64,000 bases of DNA, from positions 868,001-932,000 of the forward strand of contig NZ_CP159253.1 of assembly GCF_040438645.1 (NCBI RefSeq). Reading direction: 5' to 3'. Below are positions 35,427-61,429 of this stretch, piece after piece. A program made the position numbers and the translations under genes. Numbering within the stretch: position 1 is the stretch's first letter; each line of letters opens with the position of its first letter. This stretch comes from Mesorhizobium sp. WSM2240 (GTDB lineage Bacteria > Pseudomonadota > Alphaproteobacteria > Rhizobiales > Rhizobiaceae). The notes beneath the pieces are model-generated. The model was not told where the DNA came from. It did no database searches and was given only the letters and a program-made list of their open reading frames with translations.

Positions 35427-36257
35427 TCACATGAAGTCATCCTCGAACGAGTATCTAGGTGAACTTGGTAAACTCTCGACATCACTGCTCTCGCTACCCT
35501 CAGTTTTGCAGAGGTAGCGCGGCGGTTTGTCTGCACGCTGCCATTCGCCGGCACTGTTCTTCGTCCACTTTTCGGGATGTTGGGTAGGGTCAAGGACCAT
35601 GTCGCCATCACCTACCTCAACAAACCCCATCATCGCTGCGCGGGCTTGCGCTTCTGGATTAGCGGCGCGCCAATTCAGCAATGGCAGGTCGCCGTCCATC
35701 CGAAGTTGATGCTCCAGCAGTATATCGCCTGCGTTCTCGACGAGCGGATGAGCCACCTGAAAATCGACTATGGAGGTGATCTCAGTTCGACCAGGAAATT
35801 GATGGCGCCAATTTGCGGATTCGAACTCAGTCATGCTGAAGCCGCCTTCCGTTCTCATCAGTCCGGCACTCTGGTTTCCCAATTGATAGCTGAAATATCG
35901 CGCGTGCTCCGAATCTCGACGGATGCCATATTGCCTAGCAACCTCCGCAGTACGTCTGGCCCGTGAGGATACGAATTGCGAATACTCCCGTGGATTGTCG
36001 GCAATGTGCATGATTTTTTCGCCATGAAATTGCCTCACCTGACTCCTGAAAGAAGACCTGTCGATCTCTACCACCGGAGGTCTGGGATGAAGCGAATACG
36101 ATTGCGTAGCCGCCGACGATGAACCGCCGCTGGAATCCGATCCAGCTAAGTCCATGCGGGTAAACGTGTCCGCGAACTGTTGGGTTTGTGCATCCGTTTG
36201 CCTATTCGCACTGCGCGTGTAGTGGCGATCGGACGAGCCACCAATTCGACCATGCAT
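35427..36257 (-). CDS. nopP: NopP, type III effector
   Basis: 276 residues, beginning MHGRIGGSSDRHYTRSANRQ, nearly the standard NopP start. Conserved core: MHIADNPREYSQFVSSRARR, ARYFSYQLGNQSAGLMRTEG, VDFQVAHPLVENAGDILLEH, TKNSAGEWQRADKPPRYL. The core looks like a GNAT-type acetyltransferase fold. NopP is phosphorylated in plant cells and in some hosts decides compatibility (for example with Rj2 soybean). A tts box lies about 70 bases upstream. A diverged second copy is at 49544-50392. Confidence 0.93.
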   Translation of the reverse strand: MHGRIGGSSDRHYTRSANRQTDAQTQQFADTFTRMDLAGSDSSGGSSSAATQSYSLHPRPPVVEIDRSSFRSQVRQFHGEKIMHIADNPREYSQFVSSRARRTAEVARQYGIRRDSEHARYFSYQLGNQSAGLMRTEGGFSMTEFESANWRHQFPGRTEITSIVDFQVAHPLVENAGDILLEHQLRMDGDLPLLNWRAANPEAQARAAMMGFVEVGDGDMVLDPTQHPEKWTKNSAGEWQRADKPPRYLCKTEGSESSDVESLPSSPRYSFEDDFM

Positions 36258-40009: not shown

Positions 40010-41047
40010 CTAAGCCAAGCCTGCGGCGAAGAGTGCTCTCGCCACGGGCTCGAAATATTGCCCAGGAACAGGGTCGCCCAGTTTCGCTTTGCTGATGAGC
40101 TGATGCGCTAGGACATGGTCATCGACAATTTGGAGACGTAGCGCCCGAGCCTCGCTAAGCAGGTGTGCAACGCGCTCGCCTTCGGCGCGGCAAACCAGGA
40201 CCGGGACCCCCGTCTTACCACGAACGTAGCGTATACCGATCAGTATCGCCCTTCCTTTGAAGACCAGCGTGGCGTGATGCACACCAAGGGGAGGATCGTC
40301 TGCTGTCTCGTCGCGGATGCGACGTCGTTCACCGATCAACTCGGGCGCCCCTTGCTGATCCTTCACCTCGCGCGTGACTTCAGTCTGGGTCATCCGCATT
40401 TCGCGCAGAAACAACGCACGCTGCAAAAGGAGATCAATCATGCCGGCGGCTAGAAGTGCGCCGGCGCCAATTCCGATCAGCAGTTTGGCCTCCGCAAAGA
40501 CAAGTCCCAGACAGCCCATGCCACAGACTGGCAGATAGACCATCGTCTTCCACATGCCGAGAAGGCAAAGGGAAAAGATAGCGCTGAGAACGAATACCTT
40601 AAACAGCGTCTTGCCAAGTTCGACGATGGAACGCGCAGACACCAGGCGCTTCAGCCCTTGAAAAGGATCGATTTTCTCAAAATTGGGCTTCATTGGTTCG
40701 AGAGAGAAAACAAATCCACCATTGGCTAGCAAGCTGGCCAAAATCACCGCAGCGACTAGGGTCCCAAGCAGCGGGCCAACAGTTGCCAGCGTGAGTTCGA
40801 GGAGCACAACCAGCGCCTGCCGGACCGCGAGATCGAAAGGCAGATTCTGCAGCTTGTCAGCAAACAGCAGCACTTCGCGGGACTTATCTTCGATTGCGCT
40901 GCCTCTTAGCCATAGGTACCCGAGCCCGGCGCAAGTGCCGACCGCCCGAACGAAATCAGAGCTACGTGGCAGCTGCCCTTTTTTGCGCGCTTCGTTTAGC
41001 TTCTTGGGGGTGGCGGCGTGTGTCTTCTCTTCACTGGTGTCGCTCAT
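40010..41047 (-). CDS. rhcU: RhcU (SctU) export switch protein
   Basis: 345 residues; starts [20 protein letters not shown], the usual FlhB/SctU opening, then four membrane segments and a cytoplasmic domain. In other SctU proteins that domain cleaves itself at NPTH. Here the corresponding region reads [20 protein letters not shown] and no NPTH is visible. Its start overlaps the rhcT stop by four bases. It is the last gene of the core operon; what follows is IS debris. Confidence 0.95.
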
Positions 41048-41862
41048 CTCAGCAACTTATCGAACCACTCGAGCGCGCCATTCGCCTGTGTGATCTCCAG
41101 TTTCATGCCCTCGACCAGATAGGCGGCGTAGGTGACCATGATGATCGGAAAGACAAGATTCTTGATCGTCGGGGACTGTTGGCTCAATTTGAATTGCGGC
41201 GCAAAGCGACGCATTAGCATCATAGATACATCAATCAGAATCATAAAGAACACGACGGGCCCTGAGACCAATAAAGCCATGCGCATAATCTGATCGAGGA
41301 GCCCTGATATCTCCATTGCTCCTTGCGTGCTCAATGTAGGGTGAAACCTATACACGGGCCAGATCAAATAGCTGCCATAAAGGGCGCTGATCACAGTTTC
41401 CAGCCCCCCTGATGCGACGAAGATGGCAATCGCAGTGATCCCGAGAAAGACTCCCATAGCGGAAGCCTGACTGTTCGTCGCGGGGTCGGACGGAGCGGAC
41501 GGGCTGGTGATGCCGCGTTGGTTATCGACAAACTCACCGGCCGCCTGAAGACCCCACAAGGGAATGCCAAGAAAAGTGCCAAGCAGTGCGCCGACAAAAA
41601 CTTCCTTTAATCCGAGCAGAGTTACCTGGATCAAACGTGTTCCAGGATCCAGCGCCTGCAAGCCGTCGCTGACGTGTGCCAGAAATGGTAATCCGAAGGC
41701 AACAGCCAGGCAGCCGCGGATCAGCCCATCGGTCTGAGTACGTGTAAATACAGGTAGGATCAGCATAATGCCTATCGCGCGCCCTGCGGCAAGACCAGCT
41801 GCAACGGCGAATTCGATAGCTGTATGGATCAGGATTTGAATCTCGGCCGGTGATGCATACAT
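41044..41862 (-). CDS. rhcT: RhcT (SctT) export-gate protein
   Basis: 272 residues with about six to eight membrane segments; FliR/SctT family ([60 protein letters not shown]). With RhcR and RhcS it forms the membrane entry pore of the secretion machine. Eight bases separate it from rhcS. Confidence 0.97.
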
Positions 41863-41870
41863 GGCGGAGA

Positions 41871-42152
41871 CTAGTAGCTAAGTGTCATGGCGGGAAACTC
41901 GGTAAAGATCTGGTTGGCCAACTCTATCAGCGGGGCGCTCAGCACAGGAGCAAACAAGCCAATCACCGCGACAACGACCAGAAGCTTCACGGTGAGTGGC
42001 AAACTTTCATCCTGGATCTGCGTCGCGGCCTGGATGATGCCAATGACGAGGCCAACGACCACCGATGCAGTGAGCGGCGGCAGAATCCAGATCATGAACA
42101 CCACCAACGATTGACTCATAAGAGTGACGATACTGGGTTCAGCGATAATCAA
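41871..42152 (-). CDS. rhcS: RhcS (SctS) export-gate protein
   Basis: 93 residues, two membrane segments, FliQ/SctS family ([40 protein letters not shown]). Four copies normally wind round the RhcR/RhcT core. Its ATG overlaps the rhcR stop by four bases. Confidence 0.97.
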
Positions 42153-42814
42153 CCTCCCGGTATTGTGTAACTCAACACAAGTCCGTGCATCAATTTCGAC
42201 CAGCCATCGATAGCGACGAACACGAAGAGTTTGAAAGGGACAGATATAAGTGTTGGCGATACCATAGACATACCCATGGCCATCAAAATTGTCGTAACAA
42301 TAAGATCAATAGCGATAAATGGAAGATAAAGGAGAAAGCCGATCTCAAACGCGCGCTTTAGTTCTGATATTAGAAAAGAGGGCACCAGAATGGAGAGATC
42401 ATCAGAGGTGGCTGTGGCACGCATTTCCTCTGGCCAGACTTTTTCAGTGGAGGAGAGGAAAAATTGTCGCTGCTCTTCATTTGTGAACTTTTTAAGATGG
42501 TCACGCAGGGGCTCACTGCCGGAATTGGCAGCGCTTACCCAGTCGTCGAGGGTCTGATAACGTAGCTTCGGATCAGTCATCCGGTCATAAGTCTGTTCAA
42601 CAACGGGCGCGCTAACGAACATGGTGAGGATCAATGCCACGGCGTACAGCACTATGTTAGGTGGTATTGTCTGAGTCCCGAGCGCATTGCGAACGAGGAA
42701 AAGAACAACCGATAACTTTACAAAAGCCGTGGTCGTAACGACTACTAGAACCAGCAGACCCAGTCCGGCGGTAATCGCAAGAAGCGCCAGGATTGTCGGC
42801 TGAACTTCAGTCAT
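42149..42814 (-). CDS. rhcR: RhcR (SctR) export-gate protein
   Basis: 221 residues, FliP/SctR family, four membrane segments. Signature stretches: FVKLSVVLFLVRNALGTQTI and LPFIAIDLIVTTILMAMGMS. Five copies form the core of the export gate. Its start overlaps the rhcQ end by eight bases. Confidence 0.97.
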   Translation of the reverse strand: MTEVQPTILALLAITAGLGLLVLVVVTTTAFVKLSVVLFLVRNALGTQTIPPNIVLYAVALILTMFVSAPVVEQTYDRMTDPKLRYQTLDDWVSAANSGSEPLRDHLKKFTNEEQRQFFLSSTEKVWPEEMRATATSDDLSILVPSFLISELKRAFEIGFLLYLPFIAIDLIVTTILMAMGMSMVSPTLISVPFKLFVFVAIDGWSKLMHGLVLSYTIPGG

Positions 42815-43871
42815 TGCATGTCAAGCCGCCAAGGAGCCTGATGCCCAGCGCATCCCCAATGCGCACGATGTCGCCACGCCCGATACACTGACCATTCGCA
42901 AGTATGTCGACGGGACCGTCGATCGGCCGTCCAAGTTCGAAAATATGACCTTCGCCGGCATTTCTTAATTCCCCTAGAGGAATAGGCCAGCGACCGCATT
43001 CAAAGACAAGCACGATCTCGACATCGTCGAGATCCTCCGTCAGCCCTAGTTGCGATCCAGGTTGTGTCATATGCGCATTCTCCAAAGAACATGATCGCGG
43101 ACGGAAAGGCCCCCGCAGGACGAACTGGTCGCCCTCGAGATCTGCACCGGCCCACAACTGGCCGAAAGATAGGGTGATCTCGCCGCGGCCGAACGACGCC
43201 ATGTCCGGCAACAGAGCATCACCGACACATGCCTTTCGAAGAAGCGACATAGGAACGCGCAGCGTGCCGATCTCTCCTGCAACTACGATCGGGAGGTCTG
43301 GAGACACCCCGCGCGGCTGTCGCGGTAACTGGGCAAGCAGTTCGCCTAACGCGCGAAACGCAGACGGCACCAAGTCGCCAAGATGCGCGAACAGGAAGAG
43401 ACGACCCGCGCCGCTGATCGGGCCGAAGACGATATCCAGTTCGAGATAAGGAGCCAGTGTCATGGCTTCACACACGCGCACGAGTTGCACGTTCAACTGC
43501 GTCTTATCCTCCAATCGAGCGACAAGCGGCTCAAGTGCAAGTTCCAGAAGAAGCGAAGCAGTTGGTTCGGAAGGGAAAGTCAGCCCATTCTGCACTGTAG
43601 CGATGAGGCCCTCCACAAGCGGCCGCGATATGGACAGGACGACCATCTCAGCTCCGACCTTCCAAATGCAGTCAAGCATTGGAATGCCGGCAGATTTCTC
43701 TTGCCAGACAAGCCCTGCCACACGCACCGATAGCGGCACGTCGCTGATCCGGCTCTGAAACGGGCTGCGGGAAGCCGCTGTGTCATTGAGCCACGACACG
43801 ACCTCATGGGACAGTGTCAGCACTGGTTCAAATATAGAGGGCCTCACCATAGCCGTTGCCAAAAATTGCAC
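42807..43871 (-). CDS. rhcQ: RhcQ (SctQ) sorting-platform protein
   Basis: 354 residues. The C-terminal SpoA (FliN-like) domain reads LRNAGEGHIFELGRPIDGPV and ANGQCIGRGDIVRIGDALGI. With RhcL, NolU and RhcN it builds the cytoplasmic sorting platform. As in Yersinia YscQ, a shorter internal product is possible but not shown here. Confidence 0.95.
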   Translation of the reverse strand: MQFLATAMVRPSIFEPVLTLSHEVVSWLNDTAASRSPFQSRISDVPLSVRVAGLVWQEKSAGIPMLDCIWKVGAEMVVLSISRPLVEGLIATVQNGLTFPSEPTASLLLELALEPLVARLEDKTQLNVQLVRVCEAMTLAPYLELDIVFGPISGAGRLFLFAHLGDLVPSAFRALGELLAQLPRQPRGVSPDLPIVVAGEIGTLRVPMSLLRKACVGDALLPDMASFGRGEITLSFGQLWAGADLEGDQFVLRGPFRPRSCSLENAHMTQPGSQLGLTEDLDDVEIVLVFECGRWPIPLGELRNAGEGHIFELGRPIDGPVDILANGQCIGRGDIVRIGDALGIRLLGGLTCND

Positions 43872-43898
43872 GATTGCGTCATGCGGAGGACCCGCGGG

Positions 43899-44435
43899 TT
43901 ATCGGATTTCACTGTGCGATATCTGGGCAAGCGGACCTCTCCCATACCGAAGCAGTATCTCATCGTCGGCCTCGATCTCGCCTTCGACCTCCGAATGAAT
44001 CTCGGCGGCGCGCCGGGCGTCGTCCTCGATTCGTTGCCATTTGTGCGTTGCCGCCGAACACGTGACCCATAAGTCCCTCGTCTCGGACGCCGCTATCTCG
44101 GCCTTTTCTTGAGCGATGCGCGCACTAACAAGCATCTGCCGCCTGAAAGTGATCTCAGCCGCAAGCCGCTCAATATGAAGGTGGTGACGGTCGAGCGCGG
44201 CGCTGGACAAGTTTTCAAGCGTCATCAGCTCCTGGTAGAGCGCTGCTTCAGCCGTTGAGTAATGCTTCTGTGCGATTGCAAGCTCTCGGGAGGCATTCTG
44301 TGCGGCTGAGGTGGCCATATGGCGCTGGGCTTCCTTTTTGGACAGCTGACTAAGAGCACGACGCTCTTGCATTTCCTTCAGGAGCCGCAATCTCAAAGCC
44401 TGACCATAATTCATTCGGTCAGACGCGACATCCAT
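43899..44435 (-). CDS. y4yJ: Y4yJ, SctO-type stalk protein
   Basis: 178 residues, almost all charged alpha-helix or coiled coil (RLRLLKEMQERRALSQLSKK and so on), as in SctO/YscO/FliJ proteins that link the ATPase to the export gate. It lies between rhcN and rhcQ, the standard place, and overlaps the rhcN end by 25 bases. Confidence 0.9.
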   Translation of the reverse strand: MDVASDRMNYGQALRLRLLKEMQERRALSQLSKKEAQRHMATSAAQNASRELAIAQKHYSTAEAALYQELMTLENLSSAALDRHHLHIERLAAEITFRRQMLVSARIAQEKAEIAASETRDLWVTCSAATHKWQRIEDDARRAAEIHSEVEGEIEADDEILLRYGRGPLAQISHSEIR

Positions 44436-45769
44436 GCGACCGTCTCCTCAAATCCTGACGCCTCGTCTTCGCCCTGGCGCAAAAACTCCCTAATCTCGTC
44501 GATTGACGACACGGCCCGGTCAGTCAGGGGATCGCCGCCTTCCTTATATTCGCCCACATTGATCAAAAACTCGGTCTCGGCATAGCGCGAGAGGAGTTCA
44601 CGGAAGAACGATGCTGCCTTGCGATGTGTCCCCGAAACGACCGCATCCATGACGCGACTGCGGCTCTGCAGCACATCGATAGCGGGGAAATGCGATCGCG
44701 CCGCAATAACGCGTGAGAGGACAACATGGCCATCGAGAATGCCGCGCGATTCTTCGGCGATTGGATCACCTGTGCCATCGCCTTCCACAAGCACGGTATA
44801 GAAAGCCGTGATTGAGCCACGCTCACCCATGCCGGCGCGCTCCAGCAGACCTGGCAACATTCCAAAAACGGAAGGAGGAAAGCCCCGTCGCGTCGGCGGC
44901 TCACCCGCAGCAAGGCCTATTTCGCGCATGGCGCGGCAGAAGCGCGTCAGCGAGTCCAGCATGAGAGCAACGCGTAGCCCTTGTTCGCGAAAATATTCCG
45001 CGAGCGCTGTCGCCATCGGAGCACATTGCGCCCGCTCAACCGCCGAGCGGTCGGAGGTTTCAACAACAACGACCGTACGGCGAAGGCCCTCCTCGCCAAG
45101 GTGCCTCTCGATGAATTCACGAACTTCACGTCCTCGTTCGCCTATGAGCGCGACTACGACAACGTCAGCGGCGGCACCTTTGACGATCTGTGACAATAAC
45201 GTCGACTTGCCACAACCTGGCTCGCCGTAAATCCCGATCCGCTGGCCCTCGCCGCACGTCAGGAGACCATCCAAGGCACGGACGCCAAGCGGGAATGGCC
45301 GGTCGATCATGCGCCGGGTCATTGGATTGGGGGCGCTGCCGTGCAGCGGCCGAGTTTCGGCGGTTTCGATTTGGCCTTTGCCGTCCAGTGGACGGCAACG
45401 ACTGTCAATTACGCGGCCGAGCAAATTGCCGCCGACCGGTACTTCACGCATTCGTCCAGTGGCCACGACTTCTGCGCGGCTGGACAGCCCCACCAAGTCA
45501 CCGATCGGCGTCAACAATACGCCATAGTCCAACAGGCCGATTACCTCGGCTTCGAGCGACAGTCCGGTTCGCGGGTCCTGTAGAAGGCAAAGTTCCCCAA
45601 TGCGAGTGTCTGGCAAGACGGCATGGACCAGCGTGCCGACAGCCCGCGTGATCCTGCCGCGCACGACGCGCGTGTCGATCCGCTCTGCCTTAGCTCTCAA
45701 AGACGAAATCGCCGGATCGGCAGCCCAGATTGCAGCGCCGCTATTATGTTCTGATACCGGCGTGGTCAC
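44411..45769 (-). CDS. rhcN: RhcN (SctN) secretion ATPase
   Basis: 452 residues. Walker A GEPGCGKSTL (about residue 183), Walker B VALMLDSLTRFCRA, and the F1-ATPase-like DPIAEESRGILDGHVVLSR. It unfolds substrates and strips off chaperones at the base of the machine. Its start overlaps the rhcL stop by four bases. Confidence 0.98.
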   Translation of the reverse strand: MTTPVSEHNSGAAIWAADPAISSLRAKAERIDTRVVRGRITRAVGTLVHAVLPDTRIGELCLLQDPRTGLSLEAEVIGLLDYGVLLTPIGDLVGLSSRAEVVATGRMREVPVGGNLLGRVIDSRCRPLDGKGQIETAETRPLHGSAPNPMTRRMIDRPFPLGVRALDGLLTCGEGQRIGIYGEPGCGKSTLLSQIVKGAAADVVVVALIGERGREVREFIERHLGEEGLRRTVVVVETSDRSAVERAQCAPMATALAEYFREQGLRVALMLDSLTRFCRAMREIGLAAGEPPTRRGFPPSVFGMLPGLLERAGMGERGSITAFYTVLVEGDGTGDPIAEESRGILDGHVVLSRVIAARSHFPAIDVLQSRSRVMDAVVSGTHRKAASFFRELLSRYAETEFLINVGEYKEGGDPLTDRAVSSIDEIREFLRQGEDEASGFEETVAWMSRLTE

Positions 45770-46389
45770 AGTTCGCCTTTTTTGGAAAGAATCCCGAAAC
45801 CGAGGCGCAACGCGCGCATTTGCGCGTCAAGCCCCAGATCGACATTGCCGTATTCGCTCCACAGCACGCACCGTTGCGGCGACAACGTCGGATCCGGTTC
45901 GATCCGAACCCTCGGCCGACCATCTTTTCCGTCGCATCCAGCAAACTCTTGCGTAAGCATGTCCGCTTGCATCGGGCACACGTGGAGGCAAACTTCCGCG
46001 CCGCTGTATTGGCGCTCAATGGCGTGACGAACAGCCATCACCAACAGTTCGCCCGGATCGAACGTTCCCACAAGATCGCTTAGTATCTCCATCACGAGCT
46101 GCGGCAACTCCTGCTCCAGAACCGCCTTTCGTCGTGCGACTTCGGCGACTGCCTCTGCAATCAGCGCTGCCATTTCCTCGGCGCCAGCATTGAAGCCCTC
46201 GCTATGACCGCGCTCCAACTCACGCTGATACGCGGCACGTGCCCATCTGCGGACCCGCTGCTGATGCCGTTCTGCACCGGCACGTGCTTGTGCGGCGCTA
46301 TTCCAGATTTCGAGCTCGCTAGCCGGTATCAGTGGACCGATTGGGCGCATCTGTGGCGCTGTTGGCGCCACGGAAATATCGGCTGTCAT
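45766..46389 (-). CDS. rhcL: RhcL/NolV (SctL) ATPase stator
   Basis: 207 residues, SctL/FliH family: alanine- and glutamate-rich helix (RWARAAYQRELERGHSEGFN and AEEMAALIAEAVAEVARRKA), then a globular end. It regulates the RhcN ATPase and anchors it to RhcQ. Overlaps nolU by four bases. Confidence 0.95.
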   Translation of the reverse strand: MTADISVAPTAPQMRPIGPLIPASELEIWNSAAQARAGAERHQQRVRRWARAAYQRELERGHSEGFNAGAEEMAALIAEAVAEVARRKAVLEQELPQLVMEILSDLVGTFDPGELLVMAVRHAIERQYSGAEVCLHVCPMQADMLTQEFAGCDGKDGRPRVRIEPDPTLSPQRCVLWSEYGNVDLGLDAQMRALRLGFGILSKKGEL

Positions 46390-47024
46390 ATCAGCGGGTT
46401 CTCCGTCTCAAAATGAGCTACTACAAGAGAAAACAGCTGGCCGGAGGCGTTCCCGTGCTCAGGCTCCGGATTTTCTGCCGCGGTCCCCACGGGCAACCGT
46501 AGAAGCACGCGGTTACGCTCCATCACCGGCCTGTCATGGAGCCAAGCACCAAGACAGCCATGTCCATCGTGTTCGATTTGCTGCGCGAGTTTTTCCGGAT
46601 CAGCGATCAATCTGTTCGCGATGGCGTGCGACTGATGTCGGATTCCAAATGCGTGCGCATCAGCGCCGATATGTTCAATAAGCACGCTGAGGTCAGGCTG
46701 GGACACAAGTTTAAGCAGCGAACGGGCATGCCATACACTACCCGCAAGGAGGGCAGCCCGATGGGGATCATTCCCGTGCAGAAGGTCAGGCGCCCAGTCG
46801 GTGCGGCTCGACTCCGAGTCGTTCTCAAGCAGCAATTCTGTCAGTTTGCGGTGCAGTCTGGGACACTGCTGCAACTGTGCCAACGTCGCAGCCGATAACG
46901 CCGGATCAAGACGCGCTGCAAGACGAGTCGGATGGGCCGAAGCAGCAAGCTCGCTACAGCCCAAGGCAGGCAATTGGAACGAACCATCAGTTTGGGCAGT
47001 CTGTATCGGCATTGGCATTGACAT
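46386..47024 (-). CDS. nolU: NolU, SctK-like platform protein
   Basis: 212 residues with no membrane segment. Order (nolT-nolU-nolV) and length fit NolU of Sinorhizobium. SctK proteins attach RhcQ to the inner-membrane ring. A 47-base piece from the start of this gene (46873-46919) is repeated at 56259-56305. Confidence 0.93.
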   Translation of the reverse strand: MSMPMPIQTAQTDGSFQLPALGCSELAASAHPTRLAARLDPALSAATLAQLQQCPRLHRKLTELLLENDSESSRTDWAPDLLHGNDPHRAALLAGSVWHARSLLKLVSQPDLSVLIEHIGADAHAFGIRHQSHAIANRLIADPEKLAQQIEHDGHGCLGAWLHDRPVMERNRVLLRLPVGTAAENPEPEHGNASGQLFSLVVAHFETENPLI

Positions 47025-47025: not shown

Positions 47026-47886
47026 TCACTTAGGCGCTATCGCCGGTGTTTTTTTGCGGATGGCCTCGACAGCAGAAACACCCGACCGCCGCTCGAGCTT
47101 GGAAAGTTCGCCCGATGGTTGGCTGCGCCGGCGGCTAAGAGCGCTGGCTAAGAGATAGCACGCCACTGCAAATACGGCTGCGGCAATGCCGATCACGGTT
47201 GCCAGAAGTGGCGCTGGAACGGGCCTGGATGCTTGGGCCAAAACAGTTGCAGGCATGGGCCGTTGCTCATGCGCGGGCCGCTCCACCGGGACCAAAACCA
47301 CCTCTACCTTGTCGTAGGACAACCCTTCGATGCTGTCGGCGACGAGCATCTTTATCTTCGGCAGCAGAACCGAGAGATTTGCTTTGGCGTCGTGCCTGAT
47401 AAAAACCGAGGCCGAGGACGGCGTGGCGCCTGCCCGCAAAAGGTCGTTATGCGGCAGAACTACATGAACACGCACCGATAACACTCCATCGATATCGCTG
47501 ATCGTGCGCGACAGCTCTTCGCTCAGTGCGTACACGTAACGGGCACGCTCCTCAGTTGGCGAGGCAATCAGGCCTGATCCGTCGAATATCTGGCCGAGGT
47601 TCTTGAAGGACTGGCGCGGCAACCCCTTGCCATTCAGGAGGTTGATTGAGAAAGCAAGCAGCTTTTCGTCAACCTGGATCGTGCTGGTCCCATCTTTGGC
47701 AACCACCCGGACCGCAGCAACCCCGTTGTCCATCAGAAGGGCGAGCATCTCGTTCGCCTCGCGCTCCTGCAGTTGCGTGTAGAGGTCGACCTTGCAACCA
47801 CTAAGGGCCACGAGAAGTGGCACGACAAGGCGAAGCGATCGCCGACCAGACCTTCCACGCATGATTTCGACGGCTAAGCCAGTCAT
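47026..47886 (-). CDS. rhcJ: RhcJ/NolT (SctJ) inner-ring lipoprotein
   Basis: 286 residues. Signal peptide with lipobox VALSGC (Cys about residue 31), ring-building modules typical of YscJ/PrgK/FliF (ALLMDNGVAAVRVVAKDGTS, ARYVYALSEELSRTISDIDG, RVHVVLPHNDLL), and a membrane segment near the end (LLATVIGIAAAVFAVACYLL). It forms the inner-membrane ring with Y4yQ. A broken copy is at 56307-56779. Confidence 0.97.
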   Translation of the reverse strand: MTGLAVEIMRGRSGRRSLRLVVPLLVALSGCKVDLYTQLQEREANEMLALLMDNGVAAVRVVAKDGTSTIQVDEKLLAFSINLLNGKGLPRQSFKNLGQIFDGSGLIASPTEERARYVYALSEELSRTISDIDGVLSVRVHVVLPHNDLLRAGATPSSASVFIRHDAKANLSVLLPKIKMLVADSIEGLSYDKVEVVLVPVERPAHEQRPMPATVLAQASRPVPAPLLATVIGIAAAVFAVACYLLASALSRRRSQPSGELSKLERRSGVSAVEAIRKKTPAIAPK

Positions 47887-47895
47887 GGCCGCGGC

Positions 47896-48399
47896 TCAGC
47901 CTTCCTTTAGAAGCTTATTCACCGATGAGGTGATGCCGCTGACACCTTTGGAAACAAGAGCAATCTGGGTGACGCCGTTGTAAAGATCCCGCAGACCAGC
48001 GATCATCGCTTCGAAATCATGCCTCCCTTGCGGAAGGGCCGACATCCCGGTTCCCGTGCCACCTTCGGCAGGTAGCTTCTGCTGCGGCCCAGGGTGGGCA
48101 CCGCTCAAAAGAACTACCTGATGGTCGGGCGCGGCCGAACTGACGATATTATTCGAGTACATCGAAGAAATCGTCCGCAACACGCGATCGCCCAGGGCGC
48201 TCGTCTGCGTAGCCGCGCGTTGAACATCCATCGCCGGAGGAACAGGCACCCTCGGTGGCGCCCAGGCGGCGTCGTTTTTCAGCGGGTCGGACGCATGCGC
48301 TAGCGCGCGCTCAAACTGGGCCTGCTCGCTGAACGACGGTGAGCCGGCCCTGGGCAGGTAGTCCGTTGGGGTGGCAGTGATCGACGTGATAGGCATCAT
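47896..48399 (-). CDS. nolB: NolB/NopB, type III pilus-associated protein
   Basis: 167 residues from an ATG at 48399 (MMPITSITATPTDYLPRAGS); the frame opens at a TTG five codons earlier. No signal peptide. NopB is exported by the machine and is found with NopA in surface pili (SctI/inner-rod-like role). First gene of the core operon, 9 bases before rhcJ. A second copy at 56789-57292 differs by one residue (Thr to Ala). Confidence 0.93.
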   Translation of the reverse strand: MMPITSITATPTDYLPRAGSPSFSEQAQFERALAHASDPLKNDAAWAPPRVPVPPAMDVQRAATQTSALGDRVLRTISSMYSNNIVSSAAPDHQVVLLSGAHPGPQQKLPAEGGTGTGMSALPQGRHDFEAMIAGLRDLYNGVTQIALVSKGVSGITSSVNKLLKEG

Positions 48400-48431
48400 A
48401 ATGCAAGGACTCAATTGCTTCCGCTTGACCG

Positions 48432-48456
48432 ACGTCTAGGCGGCCGAGCTGACGAC
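48432..48456 (-). promoter_or_regulatory. Probable tts box for the core operon
   Basis: On the minus strand TTGTCGTCAGCTCGGCCGCC keeps the TCGTCAGCT half; the second half is degenerate (CCTAGACG). Position and strand fit nolB. Confidence 0.6.
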
Positions 48457-48547
48457 AATCTGACTAATGGTCTGGCAGTCAGTTAAAAGTCATACTGAGC
48501 GACTTAGTCACTTGTGAAAATTTCAGACTTTGGTTTATCAGTGCGAG

Positions 48548-49242
48548 ATGCTGAGAGCTCTCATCCAATCCGTCTCCCTGCACGTTTTGAGACTTCTGTG
48601 TGCGGGGTTTTTCTAGCCACCGGAATCCACGGAACTCTCGGGGTCCCTTTATCGCTCTCCAAGACACCTTACAGGTATACGGTTCTCGATCAGGATCTCT
48701 CTACCGCGCTGCAGGAATTCGGCAACAACATGAATATCCGGGTCAATATTAGCGCTGAGGTGAAGGGACGGATTCGCGGGAGCATGCCGGGTTTGCCACC
48801 GCGCGAGTTCCTCGACCGCTTGGCCAACCTGTACGGTCTGCAATGGTACTTCGATGGGCTTGTCCTCTACGTGTCATCCGCAAAAGAATCGCAAACTCGC
48901 ATGCTGGTGTTGACTTCGATTCGCTTCAATGCGCTCAAGGAGGCCCTTGACGAGCTTGAGATCTCCGATAATCGCTACGTCGTGAGACCCGCGCCGGGAG
49001 ATGGCCTCGTTTTGGTTTCCGGTCCGCCGCGCTTCACCGCGCTCGTGGAGCAGACGTTCAACGGTCTCGTCGCGGAAGCACAGGCGCGCATGCCTGAAAC
49101 GCCGCCAAGGGAATCGGTCCTAACACTGTTTCGGGGCTCCTCCACCATGGTCGTCCGCAACGGATTTCCTGAAGCCGCTTATTCGTCCGATGTGCCGCAG
49201 CAGGATGGTGTTGGCGGGAAGCCAGAGCCACGCCAAAAATGA
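48548..49242 (+). pseudogene. nolW: nolW/rhcC1 copy 1, signal peptide frameshifted
   Basis: The ATG at 48548 opens the same signal peptide as copy 2 (MLRALIQSVSLHVLRLLCAG), but the T-run at about 48608-48612 has five Ts instead of six, so the frame stops at once (TAG at 48614). The rest of the secretin N-domain (PYRYTVLDQDLSTALQEFGN to SDVPQQDGVGGKPEPRQK) is open in another frame, which reaches back to a GTG at 48514 with no signal peptide. RhcC1 must reach the outer membrane with RhcC2, so this copy is probably dead unless slippage on the T-run restores the frame. Confidence 0.88.
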
Positions 49243-49309
49243 AATCTGCGGTCGCAGCTTCGGGACAAATCATCACCGCGGCCACGTCAAGTTGTGAATT
49301 CTTCTGAAC

Positions 49310-49334
49310 TCGTCAGTTTGCCGAAAGCTCAACC
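49310..49334 (+). promoter_or_regulatory. tts box before nopP2
   Basis: TCGTCAGTTTGCCGAAAGCT, with CAACC following. About 210 bases before the NopP-like gene. It belongs to the duplicated block; its twin at 58204 serves nopX. Confidence 0.9.
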
Positions 49335-49543
49335 GCCCATGGTGAGGGCCGGCAGCTTCAGCGATATCTCCGGCCATTGTGCTGGATTTGCACTTGGAGC
49401 TGGCGCAGACGAGGCAATTTGAAGCAAAGCAGGGGTTTTCGTCCCGGCCGAGTTCGCAAGAGCTTGATATCAAAACATCCTTTTTGATTCAGGCTCTTAA
49501 GTAGACCGATATTGACTACAGTGCAGATATGGAGAGCGATCGC

Positions 49544-50392
49544 GTGTATAGCAGAATCACTGGTTCATCCAGCCAACCTACAAGCGCAGGCCATGTCGAT
49601 GAATCGGAGCAGGCAGCAGATAATCAGAGGTTTACGGAATCGCTTGCAGGCGCGGGGACTAGTTCGTCGTCAGCGACACGGCCGTATTCCCTCACCCCCG
49701 AACCTCCTATCTACGAGATGGACAGTGATGAGTTCAGGCAAGAGTTGAGGGATTTCTATGGTGTCGATGTCAAGCACATAGCCGATAATCCTCAAGAGTA
49801 CTCGGATTTCGTGTCCTCAAAAGCCGAGCGCACCGCAATTGTCGCTAGAGCAGGTGCGACCGTAGATGACGAGGCGGGTTCGAAGTACTTCAGCTACCAG
49901 TTGGGCGATAAGAGCGTCGGGCTCCTAAGGACGGACCCAGGATTCCGCATCAAAGGGGAAGAGTGGCAGAAGGAATACTTTCCGGACCGAAAAAACATTT
50001 CATCGGTCGTGGCCCTTCGAGTTGCGCACCCGCTCGTTGAGAACGCCGGCGATGTTCTGCTCGAACATCAACTTCGGCTCGACGGCAAGAAGCCTTTGAT
50101 CATGTCACGTCCTGCTAACGATGCGGCGAAGCCCCGTCTGGAGCAGATGGGCTTTGTTGACGTGGGGGAGAACCAGTTCGTGCTTGACCCTAGACGGTCC
50201 GATAAGTGGACGATGAACAACGAGGGTGAATGGCAGCGGGCAGGCAAGCCTCGACTGTATCTTCAAGCCGAGAGCGAGGATCCCGTTGAACGAAGTAGCG
50301 ACGAAGGATATGTCGAGACAGATTCGTCCGACGATGATCCTTCTTGGTTCTTGGAGCGGGCGCTCAATTTCCGCGGAGGACCGGCTGGCTGA
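49544..50392 (+). CDS. Second NopP-like effector
   Basis: 282 residues from a GTG at 49544. This start aligns VYSRITGSS with the NopP opening MHGRIGGSS and has GGAG 10 bases upstream; an ATG five codons earlier (49529) lacks a good site. The core matches NopP: KHIADNPQEYSDFVSSKAER, SKYFSYQLGDKSVGLLRTDP, VALRVAHPLVENAGDVLLEH, TMNNEGEWQRAGKPRLYL. Overall it is clearly diverged from the copy at 35427-36257, especially in the middle and the acidic C-terminus. Such a change may alter host recognition. Confidence 0.88.
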   Translation: MYSRITGSSSQPTSAGHVDESEQAADNQRFTESLAGAGTSSSSATRPYSLTPEPPIYEMDSDEFRQELRDFYGVDVKHIADNPQEYSDFVSSKAERTAIVARAGATVDDEAGSKYFSYQLGDKSVGLLRTDPGFRIKGEEWQKEYFPDRKNISSVVALRVAHPLVENAGDVLLEHQLRLDGKKPLIMSRPANDAAKPRLEQMGFVDVGENQFVLDPRRSDKWTMNNEGEWQRAGKPRLYLQAESEDPVERSSDEGYVETDSSDDDPSWFLERALNFRGGPAG

Positions 50393-51461: not shown

Positions 51462-54137
51462 TCAGCCCCAGCGGGGATGAGTCCTCAGTCGCTGCCGGAG
51501 TGCCTGGCGATCGCCAACGAGGTCATTGAGGTGCACCTCGTCTGGCCGCTGTCCTTGTTCCAATCCTGCAGCCAGCGCCCGCGTGGCGTCCAGCAAAAAG
51601 ACGCCGCAATCGTAGCCGTTTCGCTGCTGGGCCATGCCGGGTCGTACCGGACGGCCGGCGTGCAGCCTCGCTGCGAGCTCTGCTGCAATGCTGTTGTGGC
51701 ATCGGTATGCCCTGAGGGAATCGTAGTGATAGGCGACCGGGTTTGCCCGGTCGCGGCGATCAAGGAGCAGCAGCGACCAATGGTTGCCACGGAGAGTAGG
51801 ATCCGTAGGATTGGCATCGTTCACTGGCAGGAACAGGAAGTCGGCGGTATCGTTACGATTCTGATCCCGAACGATGTGGCCGAATGTAGCTTCCGCGGCA
51901 TCTTCGGTGCTTGAGCGCAGCTGATAGGCTACGAGGGGATCGACGAACCGCGTCCGGGCGGCGAGATCCGGATTGATGTTCTGCAACTCCTGCTGCAAGA
52001 GCTCGTAATCCGCACTGATATGGCGGTCGTCCAGCCAGCTCTCCGGCCCGAGCTCCAGCCTGTTGCGGCGGTGGGGAGCAGATTGGGCATCGTCACGCAG
52101 TGCATCCGGGCCAAACGACCCCAAATCGGAGTCGGACGGCACCTCCACTGGCCGTGCGGACGTCGCGCCGGCACGTCCCAGCCGCTGGGCCTGGTCGACC
52201 TCCTGCCAAAAGCGCTCCTGATTAAAGCTTTCCACGTGCGACGGGGCAGGCATCCACGAGGTCGACCCGGTGGGTTCCTCCAACCCCCGCCTGAGCTGGT
52301 CCCAAGCCCCCGAGCTCGCAGAGCCTGGTGAGGGAAGCTCGTCAAATGCGCTGGGCTGCCAGTTAGGTTCCTCAGTGTACCGCCTGAGCAAATCCCAAGC
52401 CCCCGAGCTCGGCGTGGCTGGCGTTGCTGGAAGCTCGTCAAATGCGCTGGGCTGCCAGTCAGGTTCCTCAGTGTACCGCCTGAGCAAATCCCAAGCCCCC
52501 GAGCTCGGCGTGGCTGGCGTTGCTGGAAATTCCTGCCGGGCGCCCTCTCCGGTAAACGAACGCGCGCCCTCGGGCGGAGACAACCCCAGCGCTCTATTCG
52601 CCTCGGCGACTTGCAGGTACTTTCGAAGCTCACGCAATCCGCCCGCATACAGTCCTGTGGCTTTGGTGAAGTCCTGGCGATCTGCTTTCAAAGACTGTTG
52701 CTGCCGAGCACTGCCGTTGAGTCGGCTCACTAGGCTCCCCCTATCCTCCTTTTGAAGCCAATCACTAAACCTGCGTTGCTTGGAACACATGGTTGAGACG
52801 CGGAGTCTCTGTTCGCGGGTCGAGTCGGGTCCAAGGTTGCGGACGGCTTCGCTGTAGAGGCGATCGATAACGAGGGCGTCGTCGAGATAAGGATGCGTTG
52901 ATTGGCGCCCCATCAGGCGGGGCCCGGGACCGAATGCTTGGAGCCCCTCAGCCCCGAGCCTCCGGAGATGAGACAGTGCCGACTTGAGACGGTCACGATC
53001 GTCCCCACCGCCTGCCGTGTAATCCTCGATGTCGGCGGCTAGTGACCTTGGCTCGTTAAAAGCCCTAGTAGTCAAGGGCCCCCTGTTCTCTGCTCGGAGC
53101 CAACGAGCAAACCCCCTAAGAACCGCTGAATTGTCCTTGATCGTGGGCATCGGAACCCTTCCGCGACCTCGGCCGGTGGTACCGTCGGGAACAACTTCGT
53201 ACGCTCGGACTGAGGCCGCGAATTGCCCGATAAGGCGCTCGTCTTCGGGATGCACAGGTTGACGTTTCGCGCCCATCCACGGGGCGGATAAGGGATTTCC
53301 GGCGCGGAAGTTCTGGAGTGTGTCCAATGCCCCACCCAAATAATTCCTGCTATTGCTGCTCGCCACCTTCATGAAGTCATCCTTACAGGCTTTCAACAAA
53401 TCAGCGTCGCCAAGCAGGTCCTCCAGTGTCACGTCTTTGGATTGAAGGAACTCGCTGAACCATCTGAGAACGGTCACGTAGTTATCAACGGTCTTAGGCT
53501 TACGTTTCTCGCGGTACAACGCCACCTTGAATTCTTCAATGAGCCCCAGGTCCGCATCGGACGGGCGGCTGCGCTTGGCAAAATCCATGCGAAGCTCTGA
53601 ATAGACCTCGTCAGACGCCGATTCGCCGGATGCCTTTTCGCGACGACTCCCGCCGAAGGCGTTGCCAACGCCTGACTTGAAACGCGACCACAGTCCACGG
53701 CTCTTGCCATCTTTCGTCCGCATCGTAGGCTGCGCTTCTGACGGCGAGGTGTAGCGCGTGCTACTGAACCCCCTGTCATGCAAGCCGGACCGCGATGCCC
53801 CTTCAGTCGAGCTATCAAAGCGTGCGCGAGGGAGGTCCACGCTAAAGCGCGCACTGCCGAACCGGTCATCCCGCAGGCTGGACTGCGATGGCATCCGCAT
53901 CGAACCGCCGATATCAGCGCGCTGGATCGCTTGCGCGTCTGTGGGGCGAGTGTCAGGCGAACCAGACTCTGCGGGGCTCGTATCAGATGAATTGAGTTGC
54001 AGCTCGTCCAGCAGGTGCTCAAAGTTCCCTGCAGCTTCAGGCATATTGCCCGATCGTTGCATCAGCCGCTGCTGCTTTCGCATGGCAGTGTACTGATTTA
54101 TATTGCAACCGTCCCACGGCTTATAATTGGACTCCAC
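51462..54137 (-). CDS. Second NopD/XopD-like C48 protease effector
   Basis: 891 residues from a GTG at 54137 (VESNYKPWDGCN), chosen because AAGGGAGAGGGAT precedes it; the frame is open 28 codons further. C-terminal Ulp1-like protease: His786 (GNHWSLLLLD), Asp806 (YHYDS), Cys844 (GYDCGVFLLD). Upstream are three integrase-SAM-like repeats (VALYREKRKPKTVDNYVTVL, SAVLRGFARWLRAENRGPLT, CSKQRRFSDWLQKEDRGSLV) and two to three 32-residue repeats (SSGAWDLLRRYTEEP). Same plan as the gene at 2144-5065, but sequences differ, so they are old paralogs. Likely acts on SUMO-modified proteins in plant nuclei (inference from family). Confidence 0.87.
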   Translation of the reverse strand: MESNYKPWDGCNINQYTAMRKQQRLMQRSGNMPEAAGNFEHLLDELQLNSSDTSPAESGSPDTRPTDAQAIQRADIGGSMRMPSQSSLRDDRFGSARFSVDLPRARFDSSTEGASRSGLHDRGFSSTRYTSPSEAQPTMRTKDGKSRGLWSRFKSGVGNAFGGSRREKASGESASDEVYSELRMDFAKRSRPSDADLGLIEEFKVALYREKRKPKTVDNYVTVLRWFSEFLQSKDVTLEDLLGDADLLKACKDDFMKVASSNSRNYLGGALDTLQNFRAGNPLSAPWMGAKRQPVHPEDERLIGQFAASVRAYEVVPDGTTGRGRGRVPMPTIKDNSAVLRGFARWLRAENRGPLTTRAFNEPRSLAADIEDYTAGGGDDRDRLKSALSHLRRLGAEGLQAFGPGPRLMGRQSTHPYLDDALVIDRLYSEAVRNLGPDSTREQRLRVSTMCSKQRRFSDWLQKEDRGSLVSRLNGSARQQQSLKADRQDFTKATGLYAGGLRELRKYLQVAEANRALGLSPPEGARSFTGEGARQEFPATPATPSSGAWDLLRRYTEEPDWQPSAFDELPATPATPSSGAWDLLRRYTEEPNWQPSAFDELPSPGSASSGAWDQLRRGLEEPTGSTSWMPAPSHVESFNQERFWQEVDQAQRLGRAGATSARPVEVPSDSDLGSFGPDALRDDAQSAPHRRNRLELGPESWLDDRHISADYELLQQELQNINPDLAARTRFVDPLVAYQLRSSTEDAAEATFGHIVRDQNRNDTADFLFLPVNDANPTDPTLRGNHWSLLLLDRRDRANPVAYHYDSLRAYRCHNSIAAELAARLHAGRPVRPGMAQQRNGYDCGVFLLDATRALAAGLEQGQRPDEVHLNDLVGDRQALRQRLRTHPRWG
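52241..52528 (-). repeat. Tandem 96-bp repeats in the second C48 effector
   Basis: Units at 52337 and 52433 are nearly identical; the one before (52241) is diverged. Each encodes 32 residues with GAWDLLRRYTEEP and WQPSAFDELP. Confidence 0.9.
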
Positions 54138-54501
54138 ATCCCTCTCCCTTGACGAGATAAATCTTTCATGGCCTCGCCTCGAGGCTAGGCTCGCGTGCAC
54201 GGGCCGCAGAGGCTCCAGCATGGGAAGCCGATCGTTGAGATCGACAACCAGAAAAAAACGCCGTCAAACCTCAGTTGTTGTACGGACCATGCCGAGTCCG
54301 CACCTTAACTCACACCCGCTGTCAGCGTTACTGGCCGCGCGCTGGTCCCCTTCGACGCAAGCCAAGCCGAAACTACGGGCGCGGGTCCCTCCTTGCGGTT
54401 TGCACACGCCGTCGAAATCAGTCATGCAACCCTCGCGATTCACATTGCGTTCGAGCCATGAGCCGCTTCGACGGCTTTGGATATCCACGCCTCATGCTAA
54501 G

Positions 54502-55836: not shown

Positions 55837-56295
55837 TTACCCCGAAACGGGCGGGCAGATCGAGCGGGCAGGGGGACAGGCGGATGTTACAAAGGGTGTG
55901 AGCGTCGGGTCGCCGAGCACGCCGGCGAACGCGATCAGTGCCCTACGCCGCTTCGCGACCGAATTATCGTCGAGCAGCGCGGCAAGCGCGGCTACCATCT
56001 CCGCCTTGCGTTCTTTCGCGGCAGCGAGCGCGCCGCGCGTCCAATAGGCGACCGAACTCAGTTCGTGTCGTGCCGACAACTCCACGCCGCCCTCGACATC
56101 GCCGTTGCGAAGCCGCGCCAATAGCCTCATCGGCCAGCTCGCCCCGAACAGGCCGGTAAGCTCGAGCACATAATCGCCCTCAACTTCCTCGAGCGCCGCC
56201 ATAGCTTGCCAGCGCAGCGTCGCTGTCGGTAGGCCGTGATTAACCGGATCGCTTAGCCAACTGTGCCAACGTCGCAGCCGATAACGCCGGATCAA
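55837..56295 (-). pseudogene. Chimeric frame: nolU start piece joined to an unknown protein end
   Basis: The first 12 codons (MIRRYRLRRWHS) lie in the 47 bases copied from the start of nolU, read in another frame. The following 140 residues (TLRWQAMAALEEVEGDYVLE, WTRGALAAAKERKAEMVAAL) are alpha-helical and well formed but not recognised. It is probably the tail of a real gene cut by the rearrangement. Confidence 0.5.
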
Positions 56296-56306
56296 GACGC
56301 GCTGCT

Positions 56307-56779
56307 GACAACCCTTCGATGCTGTCGGCGACGAGCATCTTTATCTTCGGCAGCAGAACCGAGAGAGATTTGCTTTGGCGTCGTGCCTGATAAAAACCGA
56401 GGCCGAGGACGGCGTGGCGCCTGCCCGCAAAAGGTCGTTATGCGGCAGAACTACATGAACACGCACCGATAACACTCCATCGATATCGCTGATCGTGCGC
56501 GACAGCTCTTCGCTCAGTGCGTACACGTAACGGGCACGCTCCTCAGTTGGCGAGGCAATCAGGCCTGATCCGTCGAATATCTGGCCGAGGTTCTTGAAGG
56601 ACTGGCGCAGCAACCCCGTTGTCCATCAGAAGGGCGAGCATCTCGTTCGCCTCGCGCTCCTGCAGTTGCGTGTAGAGGTCGACCTTGCAACCACTAAGGG
56701 CCACGAGAAGTGGCACGACAAGGCGAAGCGATCGCCGACCAGACCTTCCACGCATGATTTCGACGGCTAAGCCAGTCAT
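56307..56779 (-). pseudogene. rhcJ: rhcJ/nolT copy 2, broken
   Basis: Starts like intact RhcJ (MTGLAVEIMRGRSGRRSLRL, lipobox LSGC), but a 108-base deletion between two GCAACCCC repeats at about 56612 shifts the reading to a chance continuation. A two-base insertion (GAGAGAGATT instead of GAGAGATT) near 56365 breaks it again, and the C-terminal 90 residues with the membrane segment are missing. Confidence 0.9.
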
Positions 56780-56788
56780 GGCCGCGGC

Positions 56789-57292
56789 TCAGCCTTCCTT
56801 TAGAAGCTTATTCACCGATGAGGTGATGCCGCTGACACCTTTGGAAACAAGAGCAATCTGGGTGACGCCGTTGTAAAGATCCCGCAGACCAGCGATCATC
56901 GCTTCGAAATCATGCCTCCCTTGCGGAAGGGCCGACATCCCGGTTCCCGCGCCACCTTCGGCAGGTAGCTTCTGCTGCGGCCCAGGGTGGGCACCGCTCA
57001 AAAGAACTACCTGATGGTCGGGCGCGGCCGAACTGACGATATTATTCGAGTACATCGAAGAAATCGTCCGCAACACGCGATCGCCCAGGGCGCTCGTCTG
57101 CGTAGCCGCGCGTTGAACATCCATCGCCGGAGGAACAGGCACCCTCGGTGGCGCCCAGGCGGCGTCGTTTTTCAGCGGGTCGGACGCATGCGCTAGCGCG
57201 CGCTCAAACTGGGCCTGCTCGCTGAACGACGGTGAGCCGGCCCTGGGCAGGTAGTCCGTTGGGGTGGCAGTGATCGACGTGATAGGCATCAT
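56789..57292 (-). CDS. nolB: NolB/NopB copy 2
   Basis: 167 residues, identical to the first copy except for one Thr-to-Ala change (GGTGTG to GGAGTG near the middle). Intact with the same upstream region, including the probable tts box, so it may add to NopB supply. The gene behind it (rhcJ copy 2) is dead. Confidence 0.93.
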   Translation of the reverse strand: MMPITSITATPTDYLPRAGSPSFSEQAQFERALAHASDPLKNDAAWAPPRVPVPPAMDVQRAATQTSALGDRVLRTISSMYSNNIVSSAAPDHQVVLLSGAHPGPQQKLPAEGGAGTGMSALPQGRHDFEAMIAGLRDLYNGVTQIALVSKGVSGITSSVNKLLKEG

Positions 57293-57324
57293 AATGCAAG
57301 GACTCAATTGCTTCCGCTTGACCG

Positions 57325-57349
57325 ACGTCTAGGCGGCCGAGCTGACGAC
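57325..57349 (-). promoter_or_regulatory. Probable tts box before nolB copy 2
   Basis: Same sequence as at 48432-48456. Confidence 0.55.
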
Positions 57350-57440
57350 AATCTGACTAATGGTCTGGCAGTCAGTTAAAAGTCATACTGAGCGACTTAG
57401 TCACTTGTGAAAATTTCAGACTTTGGTTTATCAGTGCGAG

Positions 57441-58136
57441 ATGCTGAGAGCTCTCATCCAATCCGTCTCCCTGCACGTTTTGAGACTTCTGTGTGCGGGG
57501 TTTTTTCTAGCCACCGGAATCCACGGAACTCTCGGGGTCCCTTTATCGCTCTCCAAGACACCTTACAGGTATACGGTTCTCGATCAGGATCTCTCTACCG
57601 CGCTGCAGGAATTCGGCAACAACATGAATATCCGGGTCAATATTAGCGCTGAGGTGAAGGGACGGATTCGCGGGAGCATGCCGGGTTTGCCACCGCGCGA
57701 GTTCCTCGACCGCTTGGCCAACCTGTACGGTCTGCAATGGTACTTCGATGGGCTTGTCCTCTACGTGTCATCCGCAAAAGAATCGCAAACTCGCATGCTG
57801 GTGTTGACTTCGATTCGCTTCAATGCGCTCAAGGAGGCCCTTGACGAGCTTGAGATCTCCGATAATCGCTACGTCGTGAGACCCGCGCCGGGAGATGGCC
57901 TCGTTTTGGTTTCCGGTCCGCCGCGCTTCACCGCGCTCGTGGAGCAGACGTTCAACGGTCTCGTCGCGGAAGCACAGGCGCGCATGCCTGAAACGCCGCC
58001 AAGGGAATCGGTCCTAACACTGTTTCGGGGCTCCTCCACCATGGTCGTCCGCAACGGATTTCCTGAAGCCGCTTATTCGTCCGATGTGCCGCAGCAGGAT
58101 GGTGTTGGCGGGAAGCCAGAGCCACGCCAAAAATGA
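57441..58136 (+). CDS. nolW: NolW/RhcC1, secretin N-domain protein, intact copy
   Basis: 231 residues from the ATG at 57441. A signal peptide (MLRALIQSVSLHVLRLLCAG followed by FFLATGIHG) leads into the secretin N0/N1 domains (PYRYTVLDQDLSTALQEFGN, VKGRIRGSMPGLPPREFLDR, ALDELEISDNRYVVRPAPGD). In rhizobia the secretin is split in two genes: rhcC1 gives the periplasmic N-domains and rhcC2 (not in this window) the outer-membrane barrel. With the T-run of six Ts this copy keeps frame, unlike copy 1, so it is likely the working gene. nopX follows on the same strand. Confidence 0.95.
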   Translation: MLRALIQSVSLHVLRLLCAGFFLATGIHGTLGVPLSLSKTPYRYTVLDQDLSTALQEFGNNMNIRVNISAEVKGRIRGSMPGLPPREFLDRLANLYGLQWYFDGLVLYVSSAKESQTRMLVLTSIRFNALKEALDELEISDNRYVVRPAPGDGLVLVSGPPRFTALVEQTFNGLVAEAQARMPETPPRESVLTLFRGSSTMVVRNGFPEAAYSSDVPQQDGVGGKPEPRQK

Positions 58137-58203
58137 AATCTGCGGTCGCAGCTTCGGGACAAATCATCACCGCGGCCACGTCAAGTTGTGAATTCTTCTG
58201 AAC

Positions 58204-58228
58204 TCGTCAGTTTGCCGAAAGCTCAACC
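58204..58228 (+). promoter_or_regulatory. tts box of nopX
   Basis: TCGTCAGTTTGCCGAAAGCT with CAACC, identical to the box at 49310. About 205 bases before the nopX start. Confidence 0.92.
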
Positions 58229-58431
58229 GCCCATGGTGAGGGCCGGCAGCTTCAGCGATATCTCCGGCCATTGTGCTGGATTTGCACTTGGAGCTGGCGC
58301 AGACGAGGCAATTTGAAGCAAAGCAGGGGTTTTCGTCCCGGCCGAGTTCGGAACTGTCAAAGCACGTGCACACAAGAGTTTCCTGAGGGGCTCTTGCGCG
58401 GATTTTCAACATCACGTTTGAGGATATATTG

Positions 58432-60639: not shown

Positions 60640-61429
60640 CAACAAATGTGCGACTTCCTCGCCACGCTTCATCGCTCTATCGATCACCTTGCGAGAAACC
60701 TTTGCCTTTCCGCGCGTAGATTGAGCAGGCGTGCCTGCGGTCAGTTCGCAGCAGGCCGGGTCTTAATCCGCTGATTGTTCGGCCTTGACGTCGTCTTCAC
60801 ACTTAGCCTGTGAAAGGTGAGAACGGCTCGAAAAGAACACCCGGAAAAGAGCGGTCATGTTGACCAGTTGGGCGCGGCACCCGGGCGCCAGTGCTTCACC
60901 GGCATAGGCTCCACCGGCCCGCAACATGGGCCGGTGGAGCGCGGCGATGCAGCCGCACCATCGGCACGACCGGCCAAGATCAAGATCGCTTAGCTAATTG
61001 AGCCGCCGCCGTCGGTTCACGCGCCCGCCAATGAAGAATGTGATTTTTCATGGAATGGGGACTCTGACGCATGTGTGGACGTATATGGACCCCGCCCGAT
61101 TGCAACAGGTTGGCTGAATCCGGTTGATGGTCACAACTGCTGACGTATATCCGGCTTCCTCATGCGGCTCGATGTTCAGCGCCGCGAGCCTCGATGGGTT
61201 TTCGCCCGCTTCCACCTCAACGGCCCCCAGACATCGGCCGAAGCCGTGCCGGTCCACACACCAGGTTCGGGAAGCGACGGGGTGAGCGTTTCGCCATCTC
61301 CTGCCATTTGGCTGCAATTGCCGAGGTGGAATCTCCTTCTCGCTCTCCAGGGAGCGTCAGGCTGCTTTCACCGACAGGTCCGGTTGATAGGCCGCATGAC
61401 CCGAGAGCATTGACCAGACGATCCTCGCA
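60640..61429. other. Stretch without clear gene
   Basis: 60640-61150 holds no recognisable gene. 61150-61429 probably carries the worn N-terminal part of the IS1595 relic. Confidence 0.45.

Follow-up and report, generated by a model that had tools for sequence, protein, structure and literature searches.

In rhizobial type III secretion systems the secretin is split, with RhcC1 (NolW) making up its N-terminal part and a separate protein, RhcC2, the pore part, as set out in passages of PMC3574062 and PMC4500985, and a passage of the latter adds that secretins generally bear an N-terminal Sec signal. A section of PMC3973906 indicates that, in the strains reviewed there, rhcC1 has no tts box and may be constitutively expressed. 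The closest well-described counterpart of the locus analyzed here is that of Sinorhizobium fredii NGR234 (nolXWBTUV, Rhc-I), which has the same nolW/rhcC1 gene with the same start ATG, placed at the rhc operon's end in divergent orientation to nolB, and a tts box between nolW and nolX. The closest named locus is the T3SS locus of Mesorhizobium carmichaelinearum ICMP 18942, whose NolW is 95% identical and whose operon order is the same. The NGR234 stretch that was compared has a single nolW with nolX next to it, and M. carmichaelinearum has one full-length copy of the block, with nolW continuous with nolX and an open signal frame; in contrast, the unit studied here is duplicated and split, with a stop in the signal-peptide frame of one nolW copy. 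Recent duplicate pseudogenes occur in rhizobial symbiosis islands, where a near-identical repeat has one frame-broken copy and truncated neighbours, but here it is a core-machine gene that is broken, not an effector or insertion-sequence gene. Searches of one open-access library found no report of a duplication or a frameshift of nolW; a passage of PMC11218460 has rhcC1 among the genes listed, and the frameshifts there lie in other genes.

The window, by which we mean the whole 64-kb stretch that was analyzed (G000:C1:868001-932000), comes from a genome of 6.70 Mb in four contigs. Assignment of the gene as nolW is supported by a match to PF03958 (32.7 bits, cut-off 28.2), with the N0 domain PF21304 at 23.4 bits, below its cut-off of 27, and by sequence matches in the PDB to MxiD, EscC and InvG. 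A separate rhcC2-like secretin pore gene is present (L093:8992-10467; PF00263, PF13629 and BON) and is adjoined by a ttsI-like regulator (region L093:8992-11272), both names being based on family match and position. The other machine parts found are sctJ, N, Q, R, T and L, sctU, sctV, a sctD-like gene and a TPR protein; the names nolU, y4yJ and sctS follow position, partly after NGR234, as these genes had no family match or lay outside the family scan. Matches to the tts-box consensus number nine in the window at three mismatches or fewer, against 0.95 expected, and neither Rfam (gathering scores) nor ARAGORN returned RNA genes in the 64 kb.

Table 1 Features of the duplicated nolB-nolW locus (window positions)
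Feature	Coordinates	Strand	Remarks
Core rhc operon: nolU, nolV/sctL, sctN, y4yJ, sctQ, sctR, (sctS), sctT, sctU	40010..47024	-	
Intact nolT/sctJ, next rhc operon gene beside copy 1	47026..47886	-	TIGR02544 above cut-off
Repeat unit copy 1: nolT 5' end, nolB, nolW, nolX-type tts box	47713..49456	.	
nolB copy 1	47896..48414	-	Pfam NolB; T48057 = Ala120Thr, derived by comparison with relatives
Mature NolW part, copy 1, GTG-led open frame without signal peptide	48514..49242	+	242 aa; PF03958 Secretin_N above cut-off; PF21304 (N0 domain) does not reach its own
nolW copy 1 signal-peptide frame	48548..48616	+	ATG, 22 codons, TAG; open in 20/20 relatives
Five-T run, nolW copy 1	48608..48612	+	Copy 2 has six
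tts box, copy 1, now upstream of nopP-like gene	49312..49329	+	0 mismatches to consensus
nopP-like effector gene behind copy 1	49529..50392	+	Annotated 'host specificity protein' in two plasmid records that match at 90.9% and 93.8%
C48-protease (XopD-like) effector gene between copies	51462..54221	-	PF02902 above cut-off; NF041337 63 bits, below cut-off
nolU remnant, 48 nt, left edge of copy 2	56258..56305	-	
nolT (sctJ), truncated remnant ahead of copy 2	56307..56633	-	
Repeat unit copy 2	56606..58350	.	1743/1745 columns identical to copy 1
nolB copy 2	56789..57307	-	Pfam NolB; ancestral state at differing site, by comparison with relatives
nolW (rhcC1) copy 2, intact, with predicted signal peptide	57441..58136	+	231 aa; ATG 57441; NGR234 annotation begins at matching ATG
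Six-T run, nolW copy 2	57501..57506	+	
tts box, copy 2, upstream of nolX	58206..58223	+	
nolX (nopX), usual downstream neighbour of nolW	58429..60639	+	Pfam NolX 679.5 bits

The two repeat units lie in direct orientation about 8.9 kb apart, and the roughly 7 kb that separates them holds the C48-protease gene and the NopP-like effector gene, the latter matched by 64 records altogether. The large repeat has just two differences, the gap in the T run and a substitution in nolB (T48057 in copy 1, C56950 in copy 2), where codon 120 is ACG for Thr in the former and GCG for Ala in the latter; from 48413 up to the T run the DNA is the same in both. Two shorter repeat pieces lie to the left of the large one, at 47318-47641/56307-56633 (321 of 328 columns; ragged ends and an indel of 2 bases) and at 46872-46919/56258-56305 (48 of 48 columns). 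On the copy 2 side, what remains of nolU and nolT therefore lies to the left of complete nolB and nolW genes.

The T run is the sole difference between the two nolW copies. Translation of copy 1 from the ATG at 48548 gives MLRALIQSVSLHVLRLLCAGFF and ends at the TAG at 48614-48616 because the run is five long and not six. A sequence-only reading of this DNA had described five Ts in copy 1 and six in copy 2, a TAG that costs copy 1 its signal peptide, and two genes otherwise nearly the same; our analysis places the runs at 48608-48612 and 57501-57506 and the stop after 22 codons, and agrees on all of these points. Its view that the change is recent is borne out by the presence of only two differences in 1,745 repeat columns. 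The mature part of copy 1 is open in a frame other than that of the signal ATG, and plain ORF calling shows copy 1 as an intact-looking NolW of 242 aa though the export signal is gone. Judged by inspection and hydropathy, the putative N-termini of copy 1 have no N-terminal Sec signal, whereas copy 2 is predicted to have one: the best 12-residue hydropathy within the first 40 residues is 1.73 in the GTG-led frame of copy 1, with a charged stretch before it, versus 2.18 in copy 2, and a start at GTG 48598, which lies in the mature frame, reaches 1.37. Because secretins in general carry a Sec signal, a nolW copy that lacks one should not reach the periplasm.

Relatives carry a single copy of the block in the order nolB and nolW (divergent), tts box, nolX. 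The succession nolB-nolW then nolX is unchanged in all nine relative loci mapped onto the window, and a tts box with no mismatch to the consensus lies shortly downstream of nolW in each of the seven nolW loci scanned. Among eight annotated plasmid loci that were compared, the gene list continues from nolW to nolX in five, with an IS transposase in that position in two and no annotation in one. The five genomes reached via named loci gave one full-length block match each, two of them with one extra short weak match. The base at the position of 48057 is C in 16 of 17 aligned relative rows, which correspond to 11 of 12 distinct loci (rows L043-L047 repeat the loci of L004-L008, and L018 is gapped). 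The signal frame of NolW is uninterrupted in every relative locus examined, namely L004-L010 and L016-L020 (five named loci and seven matches of at least 65% identity, the own-genome match excluded) and L136-L143 (8 of 32 plasmid records with one place covering at least 80% of the query); L019, L020 and L136 look alike, so these 20 loci are not all independent, and distant matches of at most 40% identity (L011, L021-L042) were left out of the count. One TAG was counted in L018, and it is located outside the signal stretch read.

Because the relatives carry the copy 2 states at both differing sites, comparison with them identifies both differences in the large repeat as derived in copy 1. The longest T run in the matching stretch of the relatives ranges from 3 to 7, and in L137 the run is broken by a C (GGG TTC TTT CTC), a pattern which indicates that selection maintains the residues rather than the run. 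Runs of the copy 2 type are also unremarkable in the window, which holds eight runs of six Ts, counting that of copy 2, and one of seven. In a protein search with the copy 1 product, none of the 120 matches listed among 168 covers more than 93% of the query; as its results are grouped at 90% identity without display of the N-termini, an identical five-T allele could be hidden in it. The three sequences from it that were read (P0003, P0004 and P0008) have a normal signal at the start. The genus search covered three genomes, and that for the genus of G066 covered one.

Viewed against these relatives, the ancestral gene order is split in the window between copy 1, which keeps the rhc operon and nolB, and copy 2, which keeps nolX. 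Given the observed repeat, its two differences and their derived state, the stop and the divided gene order, we think it probable that a recent duplication with insertion divided a single ancestral locus made up of the rhc operon, nolB, nolW, the tts box and nolX, that copy 2 supplies NolW, and that copy 1 has decayed through a real change of one base. The duplication would have left two nolB-nolW copies in direct orientation with effector genes between them, and copy 2, which retains a whole nolW, the same upstream DNA and nolX, would be the most likely source of secreted NolW. With a complete nolW in copy 2, preceded by the same DNA as in copy 1 and followed by its usual neighbour, copy 1 can be regarded as a spare that was free to decay; once redundant, copy 1 would have lost its signal-peptide frame by the one-base change in the T run. 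Its ATG frame would then yield just a 22-residue peptide, and the remainder would be at most a cytoplasmic fragment, unable to join the outer-membrane ring. Since rhcC1 may be constitutive and the upstream DNA is identical, copy 2 should be expressed as before and need no special promoter, and we infer that it is sufficient for the machine. The sequence-only reading had proposed that the machine depends on a distant copy 2; we likewise infer that exported NolW comes from copy 2, but 'distant' is misleading. As nolX follows nolW in all of the mapped relatives, copy 2 is no stray copy, for it adjoins its normal neighbour just as copy 1 sits beside its own, nolB and the rhc operon. It is possible that copy 1 still yields some full-length product through ribosomal or polymerase slippage.

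The duplication could have arisen either by integration of a circle or by tandem duplication followed by loss. When a donor of the inserted stretch was sought among relatives, it matched only in pieces, these being the nopP-like gene, the C48-protease gene, a 234-nt piece and a 37-nt palindrome; the 234-nt piece recurs downstream of nolX in relatives. The palindrome (49460-49496) lies where copy 1 meets the inserted stretch; similar copies occur in G001:C36 and G002:C54, and none was found in 800 kb of this genome's core. In the same region (49312-49529), copy 1's tts box, of the nolX type, has come to stand 200 bases ahead of the nopP-like gene, whose homology to two other nopP-like loci starts at 49490-49495 and of which an S. 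fredii homologue has a weak tts box of its own (L149:1413, three mismatches); from this arrangement, the effector gene looks to have captured the nolX promoter.

The main alternative to decay of copy 1 is a homopolymer error of the assembly, with both copies intact in the living strain; we consider this unlikely, though it deserves to be weighed. The 1.7-kb repeat exceeds the length of short reads and would be hard to polish, and the genome does contain comparable candidates. A core alignment of 269,635 columns against two drafts of the same genus (G002 and a single stretch of G001) contained 500 non-triplet indels, of which the 46 that stood alone were tested; a control detected 272 of 424 removed bases, both coding and noncoding. 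Three of the 46 looked frame-breaking, one in a draft and two in this genome; both of the latter are one-T deletions within T runs, one convincing by eye (a conserved 358-aa frame in the draft that is split here) and the other possibly in a shadow frame. A noisier gene-based test added a candidate in an ABC-transporter permease gene of this genome as well as a possible frame break in the draft. This test, with 17 and 13 joins, and a further frame test, with 7 and 9 frame pairs, were swamped by shadow frames and upstream extensions and served only to pick sites for inspection. Against an error, an earlier run over 55,060 and 17,428 of the same columns had found no frame-breaking indel (72 of 102 removals were detected in the larger part). 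Candidate frame breaks occur about once per 60-100 kb, a rate that makes an error improbable a priori in the 1.4 kb that the two nolW copies occupy. Furthermore, clean A/T runs of at least five bases have the same length as in G002 in 52 of 57 cases, and in the remaining five this genome is shorter in two and longer in three. Because copy 1 carries another derived change, Ala120Thr in nolB, by which the copies had truly begun to diverge, an error in nolW is possible and not the likeliest explanation, and we judge a true base difference considerably more probable.

A second alternative is that copy 1 still makes a usable NolW, either by a -1 slip of the ribosome at TTT TTC TAG or from an internal start. 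A -1 slip on TTC does re-enter the mature frame, in which GTG 48598 also lies. However, the folding z-score for 48590-48690 is 0.02, with 97 of 200 shuffles folding at least as well, so there is no unusual structure; the internal start has no positively charged hydrophobic signal (1.37 versus 2.18); and the slip site is not conserved, the frame being uninterrupted in 20 of 20 relatives. We regard this alternative as very unlikely. An even slimmer prospect is that the 1.74-kb direct repeats act as a recombination cassette, in which crossing-over would drop about 8.9 kb with the NopP-like and C48-protease genes and rejoin nolB-nolW-nolX, and gene conversion between the five-T and six-T forms would toggle the operon-side nolW; if true, this would amount to reversible, repeat-driven variation of the symbiotic injection machine and its effector set.

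Least probable of all is a slippage-based on-off switch of nolW copy 1, which the sequence-only reading had thought conceivable: the run is a homopolymer and one genome holds both lengths, but five or six bases are short for a contingency locus, the run varies in length and purity among relatives while the frame stays open in all 20 and no long tract is kept, comparable runs are common in the window, any switch in copy 1 would be masked by copy 2, and a literature search on rhizobia, type III secretion and phase variation returned nothing with these terms in title or abstract. For copy 1, a slippage switch, a programmed frameshift and an internal start all proved weak explanations when examined. 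The loss in copy 1 is most likely due to the ordinary decay of a redundant copy or to a slip in sequencing, and not to a switch.

Several observations concern the surroundings of the locus and the wider genome. The end of nolX (60014-60669) contains 66-nt (22-residue) tandem repeats past the NolX domain that are also found in L004 and seem mostly missing from L005-L008. A second NopP-like gene (35427-36257, minus strand) matches the one at 49529-50392 at 70% over 233 columns. A very long XopAD/skwp-type effector frame lies at 61954-64000, and a 2006-aa frame just past the window (L093:105-6125) that ends in a shikimate-kinase domain is probably its continuation. At G000:C1:745578-753028 (L015, L144), a 63-nt match to nolT-region DNA lies about 7 kb from a 714-aa secretin frame, possibly part of another secretion system. 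In the joined stretch L121-L124, opposite G002:C1:107747 (L107), the conserved core gene with the 358-aa frame in G002 is split by an A run one base shorter; the cause could be an error of assembly or a genuine frameshift in the core.

The analysis indicates no new mechanism. It indicates which nolW copy to delete in secretion studies of this strain, and the preferred account, in which copy 2 supplies NolW and copy 1 has decayed, would present a core secretion locus caught shortly after a duplication had divided it and introduced effector genes.
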